Translations under genes and position numbers: made by a program
In this document: positions 11,746-23,789 of the stretch, one piece after another
Position numbering within the stretch: position 1 is the stretch's first letter
Layout: each line of letters begins with the position of its first letter
The notes under the pieces: model-generated
Seen by the model: the letters and a program-made list of their open reading frames with translations, nothing else
The model's database searches: none
Told to the model about the DNA's origin: nothing
NCBI GenBank assembly: GCA_030549815.1
Contig: JAUQQQ010000003.1
Location: 1-23,789 of the forward strand
Source of the DNA: a bacterium
GTDB taxonomy: Bacteria > DRYD01
Direction of reading: 5' to 3'
Length of the DNA: 23,789 nt

Positions 11746-14151
11746 TTACTTGTTTATTACGAATTGTAAAATATCATAGAGAATAATTGGTCTTCCATTT
11801 ATTAATACTCTGTAATCTTGCCTTGTTGTTCTGGGTAGATTATTATTTATTCCAGTTCCGTTTATAGTTACATTACTAAAGCCTCTGATTGTGTTTTCAT
11901 CTATTGCTACACCTTCTATATTAGCGAAATTTCCTATGTATTTACCGTTCCAGTATAGAGTATCATTAGTTGTTATATTATTGAAAAGTTGGTTTACTTC
12001 AGTTCTTCTAAATCTTCCGTGATCTAGTAAGAATCTATAGGAATCTTCATCTATTATTTGTAGGCTACCTCTGTAGGATATTATATCAGCATCTAAACCT
12101 GCTTGAGTTGTTTGCCTTTGGTTTTGTCTTGTTTGATAGTTAAGGATTACAAAGTTATGGCTGAGGATTGTAAGGTGTCCTCCTTGTTTTTGGAGTCTAT
12201 TTTGTTGATCAGGTACAAATCCTATATATCCTGATCTTTCTCCATTATCTCTAATTCCATTGAAATTTTGATCATTAAAGTCTTGGATTATAACGTTTCC
12301 TTCAAGCGCTCTAACTACTTGTCTTCTCCTGTCGAACTGATTATCTGTTTTTGGTATAACATATCGTGCTCCATTGTTACCAAGATCTATTGTGAAATTA
12401 GAAGGTTGTTGTGTAAATATCCATCCGCCTATCGATGGATCTATTCCATTTTGGTTTTGGTATCTTGTGTAAAAATTTCTCCTTTGTAAGTTTGGATCGT
12501 CTAAGTTGTCATTGTTATTCAATCTTGTTGCTATTATTGTCAAATCAAAAGGTATTTGTTGATTTTGGTTATTATTAAGATTATAGAATAGAGTTGGGTT
12601 ACCGTTTTGTGGAGGCATTAGTATTACATTTCCACCCTCTACGCTGATTGTTGATAGCTGAGCTCTTTGTGTGTCATCAAGTTGGTTAAGGTTTATTACT
12701 ATATCATTACCATTACGTTGGTGTGGTATTTCACTGTTTTGAATTGTTGGTATTGCTGATATTAATTCGTCGTAGGGTACTTTTTGACCACTGTATTTTC
12801 CTACAGCGAATATTCTCAATTGATTTCCTTCTGGTACTACATATACATTAGCGTATCCCGGTGGGTAACTGTTGAGTATTTGTCTATTTGGATCATTAGG
12901 ATTATTGGGATCTATTCTGACTGGATTACCGTTATTATCTAATGGCCACAATACTTCAACTAATCCTCCTCCTTGAGGTCTTGTTCTGATTTGTCCTAAG
13001 TTACCATTTTGATCTACTGTTTGCCCAACTACAACTGCTGTATTTGAGTTAATAGTGATTCTGACCCCGTTAGGCACACTTTGCAAATCAATAACTTGCG
13101 CTTGATTGTCACTTTCACCTGGTATTCTACCTTGGATATTTGAGTTTGATGTTCCATTATTAACTTGTGAAAATCTATTTGTTCTTATTGAGTATTCATT
13201 GCTATTATTTTGGAATACTCTTAAGTCATTTGGATTTATAGTTGCATATCCTGTTGTTGCGTTTCCTCTTATTAGAGCGTTACTTTGTGTTTCTTTCCAG
13301 ATCGTAGTTATACCAGATTTATTGTTATTAAATTGCCCATCAAAGGCGGTTACGAAACTTTCATTTTGTGCTGCTTGTGGAGTGGATAGGTCACCTAATA
13401 TGTTGTATCCATCTGTTATTCCAACGCAGCTATCTATTCCTTGATCAAGTAAGGTTTGTTTAAATGGGTTGGCTCCGAAAGGTACCCATAAACCTGCATA
13501 TTTAACGAATAGAGCAGAATTTTGGGCTAAATTAAATGGTGTTCTTTGGATTATTTCAGCTTTTGCTCTTCCTTGCCATACTATGTTATTAATGTTATTT
13601 GTTACAAGGTTTGAAAAGTTTCCTATGTTTGCTTGTACATTATTAAATCTACCTATTACTGAAGTAATGTTTAGTTTATATCTTGGTACTGGTTCTACAG
13701 GGATTCTTCTTGCATAATCTGCGTCTATTTGGACTTGACTGACTGCCCATAATGGTGAGTTTGGTTCTAATCTTCTTGCAATATTGATGATTAATAGTAG
13801 ATTATTTTGTGGGTCGTCTGTATTATCTATTGCAATCATTGGATTGATATTACTTGGTGGTATATTAATATTTGGTTGGCTTCTGAAGTGGATTATAAAT
13901 TCATCCCTCGGATCAGTTATGCTTTTTATAGGCGGTTGAATTATTCGATTTCCATCTCCCATAAGTAGTGGGCTAATGGTTATATCGAGTGCTTCTTTAA
14001 GGTATTGGTTATATTGTGATTCTTTTTGTATGGAAGAATTCAAAGAGATATCATTTTTAGCTGTCAAGAAGATTAAGCTAATAAAAACTGATACTATGAT
14101 GAGCATGAAGAGAACCATTATTAAAGCTGCACCTTTTTTACTTTTCTTCAT
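11746..14151 (-). CDS. Large PilX-like minor pilin/pseudopilin, Asn/Gln-rich
   Basis: The N-terminus MKKSKKGAALIMVLFMLIIV has a basic leader, a Gly before the hydrophobic helix and no Glu at +5, as in PilX/GspK-type minor pilins. It should be cleaved after the Gly by a prepilin peptidase and held in the inner membrane by the helix. At 801 aa it is several times longer than ordinary PilX. The extracellular part is rich in Asn, Gln and Pro (for example a DPNNPNDPN segment), with beta-rich C-terminal sequence (GGHLTILSHNFVILNY). It is the third gene of a minus-strand operon with two pilin-like genes upstream (14-base gap, ribosome site AAGGGGGTG). Large pseudopilins can cap a filament and bind ligands; the ligand is unknown. 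Confidence 0.8.
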   Translation of the reverse strand: MKKSKKGAALIMVLFMLIIVSVFISLIFLTAKNDISLNSSIQKESQYNQYLKEALDITISPLLMGDGNRIIQPPIKSITDPRDEFIIHFRSQPNINIPPSNINPMIAIDNTDDPQNNLLLIINIARRLEPNSPLWAVSQVQIDADYARRIPVEPVPRYKLNITSVIGRFNNVQANIGNFSNLVTNNINNIVWQGRAKAEIIQRTPFNLAQNSALFVKYAGLWVPFGANPFKQTLLDQGIDSCVGITDGYNILGDLSTPQAAQNESFVTAFDGQFNNNKSGITTIWKETQSNALIRGNATTGYATINPNDLRVFQNNSNEYSIRTNRFSQVNNGTSNSNIQGRIPGESDNQAQVIDLQSVPNGVRITINSNTAVVVGQTVDQNGNLGQIRTRPQGGGLVEVLWPLDNNGNPVRIDPNNPNDPNRQILNSYPPGYANVYVVPEGNQLRIFAVGKYSGQKVPYDELISAIPTIQNSEIPHQRNGNDIVINLNQLDDTQRAQLSTISVEGGNVILMPPQNGNPTLFYNLNNNQNQQIPFDLTIIATRLNNNDNLDDPNLQRRNFYTRYQNQNGIDPSIGGWIFTQQPSNFTIDLGNNGARYVIPKTDNQFDRRRQVVRALEGNVIIQDFNDQNFNGIRDNGERSGYIGFVPDQQNRLQKQGGHLTILSHNFVILNYQTRQNQRQTTQAGLDADIISYRGSLQIIDEDSYRFLLDHGRFRRTEVNQLFNNITTNDTLYWNGKYIGNFANIEGVAIDENTIRGFSNVTINGTGINNNLPRTTRQDYRVLINGRPIILYDILQFVINK

Positions 14152-14165
14152 TATTTTTCACCCCC

Positions 14166-14966
14166 TTATATTATGCTTTTATGTCTTATGTAAAAATTCA
14201 TTATTTTTGTATAAAACAATCTTCTTCTATTGTTTTGATATAGGCCAACTCTTATTTCTGCATACAAAAGATTGGGATTTGTAATGGTTTGGTTTGGTAC
14301 TAGATTTGTGTCTCTTATATTGCCATGTGTTTGGTATATAATGTCTTGTATTTCTGGTGGTATTGGACCATTTTGGGCTACTATTTGTCTACGAAATATT
14401 AGAGATACCATGTAGTTTGAGTTATTGAATGCAGGTCTATCAAAAATTATAGTTTCTCTTCTATTGTTGTTCCAAGTATTTTCTGGAATGGGGTTTGATA
14501 GAGTAAAGTAGTAGAAAAAGGATTGTGAATAGCCAGGGGGAATGACAACAAATCTTAGGTTACTGTTAAATGTTCCTGAACCTTCGATAACTACCCTGTT
14601 TTGTGTTCCTCTTACTCTTATGTAAGTATCAGGGGTATAGTTGTAAAAAAGTATTAATTGGTCAGATTGAGTTTCATAAATTGCTGGGACTATAACAGCA
14701 GTTGGTACATAGTATGGACGTATGAAATTAAAATTGGAATTTATATTATCAACTGAATTAGAATCTAAATAGAGATTTGAGCTACTTATATAATCACGGA
14801 TATCTTTTTCTATTATTGTTACTAATTGATTAATTTTTAATTTTTCTGTAGAAATTTTCCTTTCTGTATTTATACTGTTAAAAAAACTTATTACTATCGT
14901 TATTATTAATCCAAAAATCACCACAGCAACTAATATTTCGATTAATGTAAATCCTTTTCTTTTCAT
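14166..14966 (-). CDS. Type IV prepilin-like protein (PilW/GspJ-like)
   Basis: The N-terminus MKRKGFTLIEILVAVVIFGLI is a textbook class-A prepilin signal: basic leader, Gly-Phe cleavage site and Glu at +5, then a hydrophobic helix to about residue 28. The 266-residue length and beta-rich, Asn-rich head resemble the PilW/GspJ class of minor pilins, but the head is too divergent to name further. The ribosome site AAAGGTGG overlaps the stop of the upstream pilin gene, so translation is coupled. It probably forms part of a minor-pilin complex with its two operon partners. The prepilin peptidase and assembly ATPase are not in the window. Confidence 0.88.
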   Translation of the reverse strand: MKRKGFTLIEILVAVVIFGLIITIVISFFNSINTERKISTEKLKINQLVTIIEKDIRDYISSSNLYLDSNSVDNINSNFNFIRPYYVPTAVIVPAIYETQSDQLILFYNYTPDTYIRVRGTQNRVVIEGSGTFNSNLRFVVIPPGYSQSFFYYFTLSNPIPENTWNNNRRETIIFDRPAFNNSNYMVSLIFRRQIVAQNGPIPPEIQDIIYQTHGNIRDTNLVPNQTITNPNLLYAEIRVGLYQNNRRRLFYTKIMNFYIRHKSII

Positions 14967-14979
14967 TTTTACACCACCT

Positions 14980-15525
14980 TTAGAAGACTATCATTCTACT
15001 AACTCTTATGACTCTTGATCTTCTATTGGGAGAGATGTAGTATAATTCGACTGTTATAGTGTAGATATTATTTGTTGTTCTTGTTAAGGTTACTCTGCTT
15101 CTATTATTATTTTGGTTTTGATTATTAAGAAAAGATATTATAACTCCTTTTTTGCTTCTTATATTTTGATCTGGATTATCTGTAACTTCGTATTTTAGAT
15201 TTCTAAAGTAATTTAATAGTATTTGATTAGTTGATCTTAATATATTTAATGCATTGGCTGAGTTTGGTTGATCTAAATCTCCTAGAGATAAAATATTATT
15301 AATTGGTGAATTTGGGATTACTGAATAGATATAACTATCTGTTGGTGGTAGGGTAGAAAGATAATCCAGTATAGTTTCTCCGCCTCTCTGAATTTCTGCT
15401 CTTATTTGTGCATTTAATCTAAGTCTTTCTACTGCTAAGAAGCTCAATCCTAATGTTGCTATTATCAATCCGATTAGTGAAACGCTTATTACTACTTCCA
15501 TTATAGAGAACCCTTTTTTTTTCAT
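14980..15525 (-). CDS. Type IV prepilin-like protein (PilV/GspI-like)
   Basis: First gene of the three-gene pilin operon. The N-terminus MKKKGFSIMEVVISVSLIGLI carries the Gly-Phe prepilin peptidase site and Glu at +5, followed by the membrane helix. At 181 aa it resembles PilV/GspI minor pilins, which usually start such operons and pair with the following PilW/GspJ-like protein. GGAGGT precedes the ATG. The head ends in a beta-strand-rich stretch (YTITVELYYIS). The upstream 155-base region is shared with a divergent plus-strand gene. Confidence 0.87.
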   Translation of the reverse strand: MKKKGFSIMEVVISVSLIGLIIATLGLSFLAVERLRLNAQIRAEIQRGGETILDYLSTLPPTDSYIYSVIPNSPINNILSLGDLDQPNSANALNILRSTNQILLNYFRNLKYEVTDNPDQNIRSKKGVIISFLNNQNQNNNRSRVTLTRTTNNIYTITVELYYISPNRRSRVIRVSRMIVF

Positions 15526-18789: not shown

Positions 18790-20082
18790 CTACATTTTTT
18801 GAGAAACTGCAAAAGAGGGGGAAGTATTTTTTATAATAAATGTTCCTAAAAGTCCTAATGTTCCAACTATTCCTAAAAGTATCGATTCTTTTGATTGCTT
18901 CATATATCCGCAATGAACGAGCATGTATGTATCTTGGTTTCCTATGAAATGATTAAAACAGAAATATTTGTTTTCTTGTAATTCGATAGCATATACTTTA
19001 CAATTTTTTTCATCAATAGATTTAGCTGTTATTTTTTCTTGAATTATAGTGTTATTATGGAATAGGGTTAGTGTGTCACCGATTTGTAAATGTTCAAACT
19101 TTTTGATTTTACCATTAATGATAGCAGGGTGGTTAGAAGTGGCTCTAAATATTCTACCAGATTCTGTTTGGATTTGAATAATCTCAAAAATGCCATCGTG
19201 TTCATGTAGTTTTTCGACTTTAAGAGCTAATAATTGTTTATTATCAAAAGAAAGGATAAAATCATTTGATTGTATTTCTTCAATTTTTTTGGGAACAATT
19301 TTTCCTTCTTCATAGGTTAAGATAAGTGTTCCTTTTTCAAAACATCCTCCTCCGCCACCACCGCCTCCACTGCTTCCTTGGGTTGTAGTAGTTGTTTGTT
19401 GAGTAGTTGTTTGTTGAGTAGTTGTTTGTTGAGTAGTTGTTTGTTGAGTAGTTGTTTGTTGAGTAGTTGTTTGTTGAGTGGTTGTTTGTTGGGTAGTTGT
19501 TGTTTGTGTAGGAGGAGATGGGGGGGGAGGGGGAGGAGTAACAAGTGCTGTCATTATTGGCGCATAATAGTTATCTGGTAGATTAACGGATAAATCAGTA
19601 TCGTTAATTGGTTGTCCTGATGTAATTTTTTTAAGGCTATAACTACTTATAAAGAAATCAGTTTTATATTTTTTTATATTTCCTTTGTGTTCCCATTCTA
19701 CTTCGATTGTTACCCGATAAATATTTTCAAAATTACCTGCAATGATACCTGGTTTTCTTTCTCGTTGGAAGTTAAGTAGTCTGATATTTCTAATAATAGG
19801 ATCATTTAGTTTAGATTGTTCTAATCTGGTTTGGATTATGTTGTTAATATTGGTTTTGTATGTCATAGAGCTGTCTTGTAGTAATTCAAAATATAGGGGT
19901 GTATTATTAAGCATATCTTGTTGGATAAAGGTCATTACGTTGTTGATTTTTGTTATTTTGTTGTTAATAGTGTTAATATCTGTTCCCCAATAGACTATCA
20001 TATAGAGAGCCATAATAAGAATTATAGCTATAGTGAAACTAATAATAACTTCAACAATTGTAATCCCTTTTCTTAATGTCAT
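18790..20082 (-). CDS. Pseudopilin with a C-terminal Hint (Hedgehog/intein) domain and membrane tail
   Basis: A 430-residue four-part protein. (1) A prepilin signal, with cleavage expected between Gly6 and Ile7, Glu at +5 and a hydrophobic helix to about residue 31, then a PilW/GspJ-like head to about 180. (2) A linker of Pro-rich sequence, seven TTTQQ repeats (195-229) and eight glycines (239-246). (3) A Hint domain from Cys247: block A CFEKGTLILTY, block B TSNHP (His318), and the final strands ending YMLVHC (His390, Cys391). (4) A hydrophobic segment of about 17 residues (400-417) and a short tail. Cys first, TxxH and terminal His fit Hint chemistry; the usual Asn after the last His is missing. 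I chose ATG 20082 over GTG 20091 because the GTG lies inside the ribosome site GAGGTG. It is coupled to the upstream pilin gene. Confidence 0.88.
   Translation of the reverse strand: MTLRKGITIVEVIISFTIAIILIMALYMIVYWGTDINTINNKITKINNVMTFIQQDMLNNTPLYFELLQDSSMTYKTNINNIIQTRLEQSKLNDPIIRNIRLLNFQRERKPGIIAGNFENIYRVTIEVEWEHKGNIKKYKTDFFISSYSLKKITSGQPINDTDLSVNLPDNYYAPIMTALVTPPPPPPSPPTQTTTTQQTTTQQTTTQQTTTQQTTTQQTTTQQTTTQQTTTTTQGSSGGGGGGGGCFEKGTLILTYEEGKIVPKKIEEIQSNDFILSFDNKQLLALKVEKLHEHDGIFEIIQIQTESGRIFRATSNHPAIINGKIKKFEHLQIGDTLTLFHNNTIIQEKITAKSIDEKNCKVYAIELQENKYFCFNHFIGNQDTYMLVHCGYMKQSKESILLGIVGTLGLLGTFIIKNTSPSFAVSQKM
19396..19500 (-). repeat. 15-bp tandem repeat array (seven units) encoding TTTQQ
   Basis: Seven nearly identical 15-bp units lie head to tail inside the Hint-pseudopilin gene, each encoding Thr-Thr-Thr-Gln-Gln. 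Units at one end carry single-base changes. Unit gain or loss keeps the frame and would only alter linker length. Confidence 0.95.
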
Positions 20083-20092
20083 ATAAATCACC

Positions 20093-21067
20093 TCATTTAT
20101 TAATAATTTCTATGCCAAGAACACTGATTTTGTTAATATAGGTATTATTGTCGATATTGTCGAGAATAGTAGATAGAGTGGGGTCGATGGTGGTTAATCT
20201 GCCATCGAGTAAGTATTTTTCCTGGAAATTGGATGTTGTAAATCCTTCCCTTTGACAAAATTGGATGGATCCAAAAAGATAAATTCCTTGTATATTATCA
20301 GGATTGGAAATGGTAATTTTACTGTTAGAGTCGTACATTGTTACAAATTGACCATTTAAACATAGTTTATTTTTTTGTGAATCTGTTGATGAAAACTGTG
20401 ATGTATCAAGAGTTATTTGAGGAGCGATTACTCTAAGTAGGCCATTATCATTAGAGATTGATAGTTTGTTTTGTGTTTCTATTTGATTGATGTAATCTTG
20501 TAAATTGGAGAAATTGCTATAGATAATGTTGTTTTTTATTGTTACTGGTTCTATTGATACTATTGTTATTTTTGTATCGATTACTGCATTAGTAATACTA
20601 TTAGGGGAATCACTACCTAGTATTAGTGGAACTTCACTGTAAATGATAGTATTGAAATCGGGGGTGTATGTGTAGATAGTGACAATGTTAGGATAGTATC
20701 TTAGAATTTTTGAGAAGGGTTTAACGTTGATATTAAGATTATAGTTATTTGCGGCATTGATTATGGATGAATCATTGGATATCACTTTGTCTCCATTTTG
20801 TAGTTTTATAGTTGTAGGGTTTTTAGTGAGGTGGATAAAAGTTGCGATAAGAGTATTGTCAGTTTTTCTGAATTCTATTACTTGACCTCCTGCATTAGTT
20901 GAAAAGTTTAATTTAATTGGGGATGGAGCTGTTGATCTTATCCAAATGCTTCCATAAGGTGTTAGAACGATTTCACCACTGTTGGAATATTGTTGGCTGT
21001 AAGTAGAATTCATTGGATCAACTATTTTAGTTTTTGCGTTGTCTCTGAAGGATCTATAATATTGCAT
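20093..21067 (-). CDS. Distal part of a PilX-like pilin gene, downstream of an in-frame TAG
   Basis: This 324-codon stretch from the first ATG lacks any signal peptide, although its beta-rich, Asn/Ser-rich sequence looks like an extracellular pilin head (for example LRVIAPQITLDTSQF). The frame is open a further 83 codons upstream to the TAG at 21317-21319, and those codons read as normal protein (ESTGDFAFITAKNYEQF). No ATG, GTG or TTG occurs in them, and the ATG at 21067 has no ribosome site. It is therefore best read as the C-terminal 407 residues of the gene that starts at 21676. Its TGA lies within the ribosome site region of the Hint-pseudopilin gene. Confidence 0.7.
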   Translation of the reverse strand: MQYYRSFRDNAKTKIVDPMNSTYSQQYSNSGEIVLTPYGSIWIRSTAPSPIKLNFSTNAGGQVIEFRKTDNTLIATFIHLTKNPTTIKLQNGDKVISNDSSIINAANNYNLNINVKPFSKILRYYPNIVTIYTYTPDFNTIIYSEVPLILGSDSPNSITNAVIDTKITIVSIEPVTIKNNIIYSNFSNLQDYINQIETQNKLSISNDNGLLRVIAPQITLDTSQFSSTDSQKNKLCLNGQFVTMYDSNSKITISNPDNIQGIYLFGSIQFCQREGFTTSNFQEKYLLDGRLTTIDPTLSTILDNIDNNTYINKISVLGIEIINK

Positions 21068-21316
21068 AATAGCGTTGAGATAGTTACTGATTTCAACAAA
21101 TTGAGCAAATTGTTGGATTTCTTGAATATTATCAGGGAAATTTTTCCCATTAACTATCAGATTTTCATCAATTGTAACTTTGGAAAAGATGAAATTTTTA
21201 GTGGGAGGTATGGATATGTTATTTGAAAATATAGCAGCAGAAGAGTAGAAGGAATTTGCTTTAAACTGTTCGTAATTTTTAGCAGTAATAAAAGCGAAAT
21301 CGCCGGTACTTTCTCT

Positions 21317-21319
21317 CTA
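21317..21319 (-). other. In-frame TAG interrupting a PilX-like gene
   Basis: A single TAG separates codons 1-119 from the 407 codons that follow in the same frame. One base change from AAG, CAG or GAG would create it. TAG also ends three other genes in the window. Confidence 0.8.
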
Positions 21320-21676
21320 TTTAACAATACCCCTTGCCCATAGATTCCCATTTTTTGACAATTGGATGAGAAGATGGGTTTGATTAAGAGGAGTTATATT
21401 ATAATTCACAGAATAACGTTGAAGTCTATTTTGGTATTCATATGTTCCATTTTTAATAGAACTATCATTAGGGTTATTTAAGTTTCTTTCTCTGTAAATT
21501 TCAGTAATTGCAGTGAGGATAGATTTTATGTCATAATAGAGTCGAGAATCTTTGTATATGCTTCTGGTTACTTTGATGTCGGTGGAAACATAATTAAAGA
21601 GGATGATACTAAAAAAACTAATGAAAATAGTGAAAAGGGCGAGCCAAAGATACATATAAAGCCCTTTTTTATTCAT
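21317..21676 (-). CDS. PilX-like minor pilin, N-terminal fragment ended by TAG
   Basis: The N-terminus MNKKGLYMYLWLALFTIFIS has a short basic leader, a Gly cleavage site and a hydrophobic helix to about residue 28 without Glu at +5, as in PilX/GspK-type pilins and in the 801-residue protein of the other operon. The fragment continues through an alpha-spine (DIKSILTAITEIYRERN) and the first strands, then stops at 119 aa after NLWARGIVK. A strong ribosome site (AGGAGGGGGTG) precedes the ATG, so translation does begin here. Full length without the TAG would be 527 codons, ending at 20093. It opens the operon that continues to the Hint-pseudopilin gene. It is either a pseudogene, an assembly error or a read-through gene. 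Confidence 0.75.
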   Translation of the reverse strand: MNKKGLYMYLWLALFTIFISFFSIILFNYVSTDIKVTRSIYKDSRLYYDIKSILTAITEIYRERNLNNPNDSSIKNGTYEYQNRLQRYSVNYNITPLNQTHLLIQLSKNGNLWARGIVK

Positions 21677-21916: not shown

Positions 21917-23317
21917 CTAATTGGTTTGATTTTTTTTATTATTGTTCAATTGTTGTAAATAGTATTCAATATTTTGTAATATTTGTTGACTTGGTATTTT
22001 ATCTATTTGTTCTTTTGCTTTACTATATTCTTGCCCATTAAATACTTGTTGTAAAATTATTAATTTTCTAAATTCTTCTACTGCTCCTGTAGTATTCTTA
22101 TTTATGTAGTATTTGATTGAGTTTGATAGGAATATGTTTGATAATTCTTGGAATAATGCTTGCTTTAGTTGTTCTTCATTTAGGCTGTTAAGTTGTTTGA
22201 TGGTTTCTTCTTTTTGTTCTTTATTTATTTCTGATAGTTCTAAATTTTTGATGATTAATTCTTTATAGAGTTTGGAGGCTTCAGTTAGATTATTTTGTTC
22301 GATCGCTGTTTGGATTTTTTGCAGGTATTTATCTGTATTTTCTTGTATTTCGTTAATATTATTTATTTTATTTGCTACGGAAAAAGATGTTAACAAAAAT
22401 ACTGACAAAGGTATGCCAAGAGCCAGAGGTCCGATCATTGGAAAAAGTATTGTTGCTAAAGTAGACGCACCTAAGGTTGATACTCCACCTATTAATATTC
22501 CTGCAACTACACCTTTCAGTTTTTTAGGAAGTTTTGAAAGAAAAGATAGATGTGGAGTTAAAAAATTTGAAATTTTTGAGGACAAAAAGTTTGACACTTT
22601 TTCAAATAAATTTTCGGTTTTTGGGGAAAACTTATGATTTATGATGGTTAATATTGTATTTAGGAATGCAAAAATCGCTGCATTTATGGGACCACCTATT
22701 ATACTTAGACCAAAACCTAATCCTAATGATGTTAATATTCCTATTAGCAATTTTTTATTTTCATCTGCTTCAAATATATTTGGTAGTTGTGAGGAAAATG
22801 TCGATGTTGTTATTAAAGTTGCAGGTAAGTTGAAAGCGAGAGCCAGTGGTAAAAGTTTAAAGGCAAAGGAATTGTTATTATTTATTTCTTTTGATGCTGT
22901 TGATGTTAGATTTCCTATGTTGGATGCTATTGCAGCAGATATTGCACCAACTATTATGGATAGTGGATTGTTTATCCCCATCCCTAAACTTAATGCAGAA
23001 AAAGCGGCTGACGATATGAGTGTAGATGTAATTAATGATAGTATTGGGTTTTGTGTTTTTTTACCTACTAAATTACCTATGACTGATCCTGTGATCGATG
23101 ATGCTCCTGTTATTGGGCCACCTATGATGGAACCCCATAAGCCTGCGTTTATTGCTCCCCTTAAAGCGGAAACGTTGTATTTATCACTTATCGGTATTGA
23201 ATCAAATTCTTCTTTTATTTTTTGTAAATTTTCTTTGATATTTTCAAAGAGTTTTTGAATGTAGTTTTTGTCAATAGTTAAAGAATGAGGTTTATTTTGT
23301 AGATTGGTAGTATCCAT
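21917..23317 (-). CDS. Glycine-rich multi-pass membrane protein of unknown function
   Basis: A 466-residue protein I do not recognise. Residues 1-50 are a charged helical head. Residues about 52-325 hold many hydrophobic Gly/Ala/Ser-rich segments with glycine-zipper character; the phrase IIGGPI occurs twice (IIGGPITG and IIGGPINA), hinting at internal duplication. Residues about 330-466 are a Lys/Glu/Gln-rich helical tail with TPR-like spacing (AIEQNNLTEASKLYKELI). Such layouts occur in pore-forming or membrane-scaffold proteins and in some phage tail tape-measure proteins, but nothing proves either. AAGGAG sits 9 bases before the ATG and the gene follows the M15 peptidase gene by 13 bases, so the two form an operon. 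The gene ends with TAG and its unit with a clear terminator. Confidence 0.75.
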   Translation of the reverse strand: MDTTNLQNKPHSLTIDKNYIQKLFENIKENLQKIKEEFDSIPISDKYNVSALRGAINAGLWGSIIGGPITGASSITGSVIGNLVGKKTQNPILSLITSTLISSAAFSALSLGMGINNPLSIIVGAISAAIASNIGNLTSTASKEINNNNSFAFKLLPLALAFNLPATLITTSTFSSQLPNIFEADENKKLLIGILTSLGLGFGLSIIGGPINAAIFAFLNTILTIINHKFSPKTENLFEKVSNFLSSKISNFLTPHLSFLSKLPKKLKGVVAGILIGGVSTLGASTLATILFPMIGPLALGIPLSVFLLTSFSVANKINNINEIQENTDKYLQKIQTAIEQNNLTEASKLYKELIIKNLELSEINKEQKEETIKQLNSLNEEQLKQALFQELSNIFLSNSIKYYINKNTTGAVEEFRKLIILQQVFNGQEYSKAKEQIDKIPSQQILQNIEYYLQQLNNNKKNQTN

Positions 23318-23330
23318 TTGGTTTTACTCC

Positions 23331-23789
23331 TTATGGTAGTTGTATGTGCATGTGTGGTCCTGTTTTATATGGGCTATCATAGATATACTCGTTATAAACT
23401 TTGAATCCTGCTTTTTCTGCTAATTTTTCTACTATTTTGGATTCTTCTTGGGTAAGTGGTTCGACGACGAAGTCGAGAGCTTCTCCTCTGTAGTGTGCGC
23501 TATTTGGCATATGTTGTCCATCCATTCCTGAGGTTATAGTTATTTCTCTGCCAGGGAAGTACTGTTTTATCATTTTTTCTAATTCCATAAATTTTGCTGC
23601 GACTTCTGCTTTCATTTTGAAACCCCTAAATTCTATGATCGAATCTTTATTTATTGAGTCAAGTATGTTATTATTTATGCCAAACTTGTTGTTTGATAGA
23701 AAATTAAGTAAATTTTCTACATTGGATTGTTCAGTTTTTGTATTATTATCCGTATTTATATTTTTTTCAAATATTTGGGAAAATTTGGT
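23331..23789 (-). CDS. M15-like zinc peptidase domain protein (5' end outside the window)
   Basis: The C-terminal domain has the pattern of D-Ala-D-Ala carboxypeptidase/M15 metallopeptidases: SGMDGQHMPNSAHYRGEALDF gives the first His and Asp zinc ligands, and GPHMHIQLP gives the last HxH. Likely substrate is peptidoglycan cross-bridges or stem peptides, but a non-catalytic or other peptidase role is possible. An internal ATG at 23615 would give 94 aa, but the frame stays open for 58 more codons to the window edge (TKFSQIFEKN to EFRGFK). No ribosome site is seen at 23615, so the real protein is longer with an Asn/Lys-rich N-terminal part. It is co-transcribed with the glycine-rich membrane protein gene. 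No BLAST-level identity is claimed. Confidence 0.75.
   Translation of the reverse strand, partial: TKFSQIFEKNINTDNNTKTEQSNVENLLNFLSNNKFGINNNILDSINKDSIIEFRGFKMKAEVAAKFMELEKMIKQYFPGREITITSGMDGQHMPNSAHYRGEALDFVVEPLTQEESKIVEKLAEKAGFKVYNEYIYDSPYKTGPHMHIQLP

Follow-up and report, generated by a model that had tools for sequence, protein, structure and literature searches.

Results

A pilin–Hint gene and its surroundings

In the 23,789-nt stretch of DNA analysed here (the window), positions 18790–20082 hold a gene on the minus strand that encodes, in order, a prepilin, a linker, a Hint domain and a hydrophobic tail. The open reading frame runs from an ATG at 20082 to 18793 (430 aa) and ends in TAG; a plus-strand reading of 18790–20082 was rejected because of stops throughout. 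A Shine-Dalgarno-like sequence (GAGGTGAT, 20087–20094, with GAGGTG at 20094–20089) lies ahead of the ATG, and an alternative GTG at 20091 falls within it. A first-pass annotation had proposed the prepilin–Hint–tail layout for this stretch, and the layout is confirmed on the minus strand and by four more complete copies described below. The other window features discussed here are on the minus strand as well.

The upstream gene (20093–21676) encodes a homologue of GspK/ComGG-type minor pilins. The protein is full length by homology and 58% identical to the intact protein of G000:C9, and carries a single in-frame TAG (21317–21319) at a position where the G000:C9 paralogue has Trp. A frameshift was rejected, the lesion being this one codon, as was reassignment of TAG, since the pilin–Hint gene itself stops at TAG. 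Given the stop in the GspK-like gene, the operon may be decaying. Searching for a plasmid, phage or viral origin gave no match.

The window also contains a second minor-pilin set (11746–15525) with two prepilins and an 801-aa GspK-like protein. Farther upstream of the Hint gene lies a 466-aa Gly/Ala-rich protein (21917–23317), probably a multi-helix membrane protein. A stand-alone 94-aa protein (23331–23615) scores 23.7 bits against the Pfam profile of the Hedgehog N-terminal signalling domain, where the cut-off is 22.1. It is probably an M15-type peptidase (HxxxxxxD...HxH), and its location about 3 kb upstream of a gene with a Hog-like Hint domain is possibly a coincidence.

The pilin part

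The protein starts with a class III leader, MTLRKG (20065–20082), followed by ITIVE, such that Gly-1 and Glu+5 are present and prepilin peptidase is predicted to cut after Gly6. A hydrophobic α1 segment follows (residues 12–30, 19993–20049; Kyte-Doolittle hydropathy 2.89), and AlphaFold2 predicts a long α1 helix (residues 5–59) and then strands for the window pilin (pLDDT 78.6). The Pfam profile N_methyl gives 13.7 bits for the window protein, below the cut-off of 21.2, and 21.0 bits against the same cut-off for the homologue L006. A search with a profile of the head (19537–20064; about 150 residues, α1 and β-sheet by profile and predicted structure) in seven genomes placed the protein in a pilin family found in six of them, to which Hint-less pilins also belong. 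The prepilin N-terminus recognised in the first pass is borne out by the leader, the predicted α1 helix and this family membership. The description of the head as PilW-like fared less well: a fold search against the PDB returned no confident match, and the sole secretion-filament structure among the matches, the GspI/GspJ pseudopilin pair, scored Z 5.4, within noise.

Between head and Hint domain is a low-complexity linker (19345–19536) made up of a Pro run, seven TTTQQ units and SSGGGGGGGG, the eight Gly of which directly precede Cys247. The residue before the Hint Cys is Gly in five of six copies and Lys in L007, so that a Gly C-terminus is non-essential to the pilin–Hint family. The genome of the window contains a prepilin peptidase gene and two secretins. 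The Hint pilins adjoin GspK-like and other minor-pilin genes, and this neighbourhood suggests that they are minor pilins.

A Hint domain with Cys or Ser in place of the terminal Asn

Residues 247–393 (18904–19344) make up the Hint domain, as judged from profile, AlphaFold2 model and structure alignment. The NCBIfam profile TIGR01445 (intein_Nterm) matches residues 247–319 with 31.0 bits, over the cut-off of 24.5; Pfam Intein_splicing, PT-HINT and Hint are each sub-threshold for the window copy. The PT-HINT matches lie at 17.5–20.1 bits, under a cut-off of 27.7. An AlphaFold2 model of the domain was built from six homologues and compared with solved structures by Foldseek and VIA-align. Its pLDDT is mostly above 90 in the Hint domain and below 50 in the tail. 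In the top 20 comparisons with solved Hint structures, Z is 18.2–19.6 and the rmsd 1.5–2.3 Å over 126–144 residues, and the model groups with the bacterial intein-like (BIL) domain 2lwy from C. thermocellum, inteins and Drosophila Hedgehog 1at0. From profile and model together, the predicted Hint fold of the window protein can be regarded as secure; the domain claimed at the outset was found by both routes.

Cys247 (19342–19344), the first residue of the domain, is the predicted nucleophile of the N–S acyl shift by profile and alignment. Block B TxxH is T315-S-N-H318 (19129–19140), part of TSNHP at residues 315–319, with T and H invariant in the alignment. Counted within the domain, C1, T69, N71, H72, H47 and H49 are invariant in all six complete Hint domains. 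At the other end, VHCGY (residues 389–393, 18904–18918) places His390 at the penultimate-His position and Cys391 at that of the intein terminal Asn and of Hedgehog Cys400, by sequence and structure alignment. The terminal-Asn position is Cys or Ser in 6/6 domains; the residue before it is His in five and Asn in L002, and Gly follows at +1 throughout. In the structural superposition, model Cys147 (Cys391 of the protein) faces the C-terminal residue of the inteins 2in0 (440), 2keq (137) and 1zd7 (159); residue 402 of 1at0 pairs with model residue 149, which puts Cys400 opposite Cys391.

Replacement of Asn by Cys or Ser makes Asn cyclisation impossible at this site, and splicing is not expected. 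Judging from the conserved residues, the N-side thioester chemistry should be intact in the family, and N-side cleavage without splicing is the chemistry expected of the pilin Hint. The first-pass interpretation is thus supported in part: the Hint fold and the N-terminal catalytic residues bear it out, and of the Hint reactions that it listed (splicing, cleavage and transfer), splicing is not expected with Cys391 in place of the terminal Asn.

The hydrophobic tail

Residues 399–417 (18832–18888) form a hydrophobic segment (hydropathy 1.93), a candidate transmembrane helix, which is followed by a short Lys-containing tail. Across copies, 37–39 largely hydrophobic residues come after the Hint domain; these tails are 10–39% identical over all pairs, yet all are hydrophobic. 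The membrane tail that had been proposed holds up as far as the hydrophobic segment goes, as a candidate helix, and not in its structure, which is not confidently predicted (pLDDT <50). Signal-peptidase-like motifs (SFA-V, VFA-A, IFA-A and AWA-D) occur after the tail in four of six copies, those of the window, L005, L006 and L007. A tail whose end lies on the cytoplasmic side would not account for them, and they could mean another topology.

Distribution, copies and selection

The window comes from a hot-spring bacterium (Candidatus Calescibacterium), and its relatives include Candidatus Calescibacterium sp. SKYB25. Members of this candidate phylum, Calescamantes/Calescibacterota, live in hot springs and are considered Gram-negative on the basis of gene content (PMC4791363). 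Among the seven genomes of the phylum that were compared, four from two genera encode the Hint domain; the other three are 71–79% complete, which leaves its absence there unproven. Four further complete copies have the identical order of parts: G000:C9 (425 aa), G004:C20 (455 aa), G005:C15 (415 aa) and G005:C5 (418 aa). Recurrence of the order prepilin–linker–Cys–Hint–tail in four independent complete copies is far beyond chance, and the search for other such fusions that had been suggested for this protein was answered by the same layout in relatives from two genera. A search for the intein-splicing family in the seven genomes found every Hint match on a pilin. No further pilin–Hint was found among 386 genomes that included other phyla, in a first look that is insensitive to distant Hint domains; the only other Hint match was a secreted non-pilin pair in a 9-Mb genome (G034:C33), where L021 and L022 are tandem exported proteins with a Cys-initiated Hint domain mid-protein.

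Two copies are damaged. In that of G001 (L004) the reading frame is interrupted within the linker; PGTDPGTGPGTDPGGGGGGCFEP is still encoded there in a different frame. In G000:C18, a third genomic copy, a pilin is followed by a stop and then by a remnant Hint domain without its N-terminal part; this deletion indicates that the cassette is dispensable.

The two pilins of G005 have heads that are 27% identical (unrelated) and Hint domains that are 79% identical. By this comparison, the Hint cassette is portable between pilin heads and takes the same position each time. For the Hint domain, copies of the second genus have dN 0.11–0.15 vs dS 0.50–0.64, and the values for the G004/G005 head pair are similar (dN 0.20 vs dS 0.79). 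With dN well below dS, the Hint domain is kept by purifying selection.

Hint-less members of the head family are G000:C14, G001:C22 and a group located beside tsf in four genomes. The G003 member ends in TTTTSQGGGSGGGGGGGYIKPPQVM and then a stop, GGGSGGGGGGGYIKPPQVM being its bare Gly-run end, and no Hint domain was found downstream of it in any frame. A free linker with a Gly run is thus a natural end state, and from its sequence this C-terminus resembles the product expected from cleavage at Gly-Cys. Another module grafted at the C-terminus is seen in a broken pilin of the same family in G005:C11 (L031, 1749–2093), where a short Cys/His tail, CGYVLPGGYTCARPKGHKGPHAF, accompanies a linker rich in Thr. 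In both genomes of the second genus, the gene immediately downstream of the Hint pilin is PLD-like, with two HxK-type stretches (L018, 4877–6181; L019, 7352–8548).

Discussion

Self-cleavage as a proposed maturation step

Pilins sit in the membrane via α1 with the head outside and are then extracted into the filament. We propose, with a probability of about 0.6, that the protein belongs to the modular minor pilins of type IV and carries a Hedgehog-like autoprocessing cassette of Hint domain and C-terminal membrane anchor, in which self-cleavage on the N-side of the Hint domain licenses the pilin for the filament. The prepilin would enter the cytoplasmic membrane by its N-terminal helix, head outside, and the prepilin peptidase encoded in the genome would remove the leader at the motif present. 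The hydrophobic tail would anchor the C-terminus as a helix and hold the Hint domain just outside the membrane. Cys247, aided by Thr315 and His318, would turn the Gly246-Cys247 bond into a thioester, as expected for these residues in a Hint fold. Opening of the thioester by water or another nucleophile would separate the pilin and its Thr/Gln/Gly stalk from the Hint stump, which stays anchored, and the subunit, now held by α1 only, could then be drawn into the filament. Since extraction should fail for a pilin that has two helices in the membrane, cleavage would act as the licensing step.

Conjugation of the pilin is the leading rival of this model, possible though doubtful. Here, a specific nucleophile of the envelope (a lipid headgroup, a glycan, or an amine of peptidoglycan or protein) would attack the Hint thioester and the stalk would become covalently attached, as is cholesterol in Hedgehog. 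The Hog-like residue at the terminal-Asn position is consistent with such a transfer, as are the scores of L005 and L006 above the Pfam cut-off for the Hedgehog Hint module and a membrane tail located where Hedgehog has its membrane-interacting sterol-recognition region. Hog-Hint domains are said to be characterised by an Asp or His that activates cholesterol (PMC7765530), and hhalign pairs the invariant His49 with Asp303; however, this alignment is unstable, MAFFT giving a gap. Also against conjugation, there is no adduct-recognition domain beyond the tail of about 40 residues, and the Gly at -1 is not universal. Tentatively, and with odds well against it, such a reaction might be a bacterial counterpart of Hedgehog conjugation, in which a Hint domain anchored in the membrane would hand over the Gly-ended pilin stalk covalently to a molecule of the envelope, as a Hint-based surface anchoring parallel to that by sortases.

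The two hydrophobic segments in one pilin also fit a role as base anchor, in which the second helix of the uncleaved protein would prevent full extraction and hold the filament at the membrane, Hint cleavage being a timed release switch or rare. We consider this unlikely, because GspH–K-type minor pilins initiate the filament at its tip (PMC10191384) and the GspK-like neighbours favour a tip over a base position. That the domain is a functionless intein or BIL, decayed after landing at the end of a pilin gene, would account for the lost Asn, the pseudogene-like remnant and the frame break in L004. This too is unlikely when C1 and TxxH are kept in six complete Hint domains, dN is well below dS, and the cassette sits on two unrelated heads, in the same place each time. 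HINT domains commonly precede toxin domains (PMC3482391), and there is the sub-threshold PT-HINT match; release of a C-terminal toxin is nevertheless scarcely credible, since the largely hydrophobic tail of 37–39 residues leaves no room for a toxin domain.

Few Hint domains other than those of inteins, Hedgehog and toxins have, to our knowledge, been assigned a physiological role. In the pilin–Hint proteins, the substrate (a pilin), the extracytoplasmic compartment and a reason for cleavage (the block that a second membrane helix would put on filament assembly) can all be read from the gene, and the arrangement suggests that, once exported, these pilins have to release themselves by self-cleavage or become attached to something. 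If our self-cleavage model is true, self-processing joins the list of pilin maturation steps. The proteins also offer a bacterial example of a Hog-type Hint domain with an exported protein on one side and a membrane segment on the other, and a source of thermophilic Hog-like domains for protein engineering. The layout, described in the first-pass annotation as unlike any standard type IV pilin, is indeed absent from the searchable pilin literature, and no published pilin–Hint fusion was found in the searchable literature, outside of which most subscription journals lie. Hint domains in toxins (PMC3482391) and modular pilins with grafted domains (PMC10191384) are known; pilin–Hint joins known parts in a new way, with a reaction that is clear and testable.

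Comparison with known Hint and pilin systems

The pilin Hint shares its fold and blocks A, B and F with inteins (MJ KlbA, 2JMZ; Npu DnaB, 4O1R). Inteins have a C-terminal His-Asn and Cys/Ser/Thr at +1, whereas the pilin Hint has no terminal Asn and has Gly at +1. Unlike inteins, it is not inserted in a conserved enzyme, has no endonuclease and is followed by no C-extein beyond the hydrophobic tail. BIL domains, already described (PMC4031507), are likewise bacterial and found in non-conserved surface proteins, and 2LWY is the best Foldseek match (profile E 3.5e-4). However, type A BILs end in His-Asn and the pilin Hint in His-Cys/Ser. Type B BILs cleave on the N-side and have no block G similarity; the pilin Hint has lost the Asn but keeps the block G His in 5/6 copies. 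It also differs from BILs in its fusion partners, a prepilin ahead of it and a hydrophobic segment at the C-terminus. Identity as an intein or a type A BIL was rejected on the absence of the terminal Asn.

Secreted bacterial Hint proteins (the group of Burglin, 2008; L021/L022 of G034) are also exported and Hint-bearing, but have no pilin, and a hydrophobic tail is not seen in them. Modular pilins such as S. sanguinis PilB and PilC (PMC10191384) resemble the present proteins in that a linker connects the minor pilin to an additional C-terminal domain; here, in contrast, the graft is not an adhesin but serves autoprocessing and has a membrane tail.

The likeness to Hedgehog is found at several levels. 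The model superimposes on 1AT0 with Z 19.0 and an rmsd of 1.9 Å over 134 residues, and the spacing from C1 to T69/H72 equals that from C258 to T326/H329, as checked in the 1at0 sequence; the matching Thr and His, equivalent to T315 and H318, are required for the Hedgehog reaction (PMC9163320). D303 and C400 are Hedgehog-specific residues (PMC9163320), and motif J of Hedgehog, the counterpart of intein motif G, has a Cys that is replaced by Ser or other residues in protists and algae (PMC2362128). The pilin family has Cys or Ser at the Cys400 position, and invariant His49 or a gap at that of Asp303, depending on the alignment program. In both systems, the Hint domain, predicted to be extracytoplasmic in the pilins, is C-terminal to its substrate and followed by a membrane-interacting stretch, a candidate one in the pilins. 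The differences are a sequence identity of 14%, a pilin as substrate, the bacterial origin, and a short hydrophobic tail without motifs of the sterol-recognition region. The Pfam profile of the Hedgehog Hint module (PF01079, cut-off 29.7) gives 35.3 bits for L005 and 33.9 for L006, which pass whether the full protein or the isolated Hint is scored, a score just above the cut-off for the isolated Hint domain of L007, and 14.8 for the window copy. By analogy, the pilin Hint would work like a Hog domain without being classed as one.
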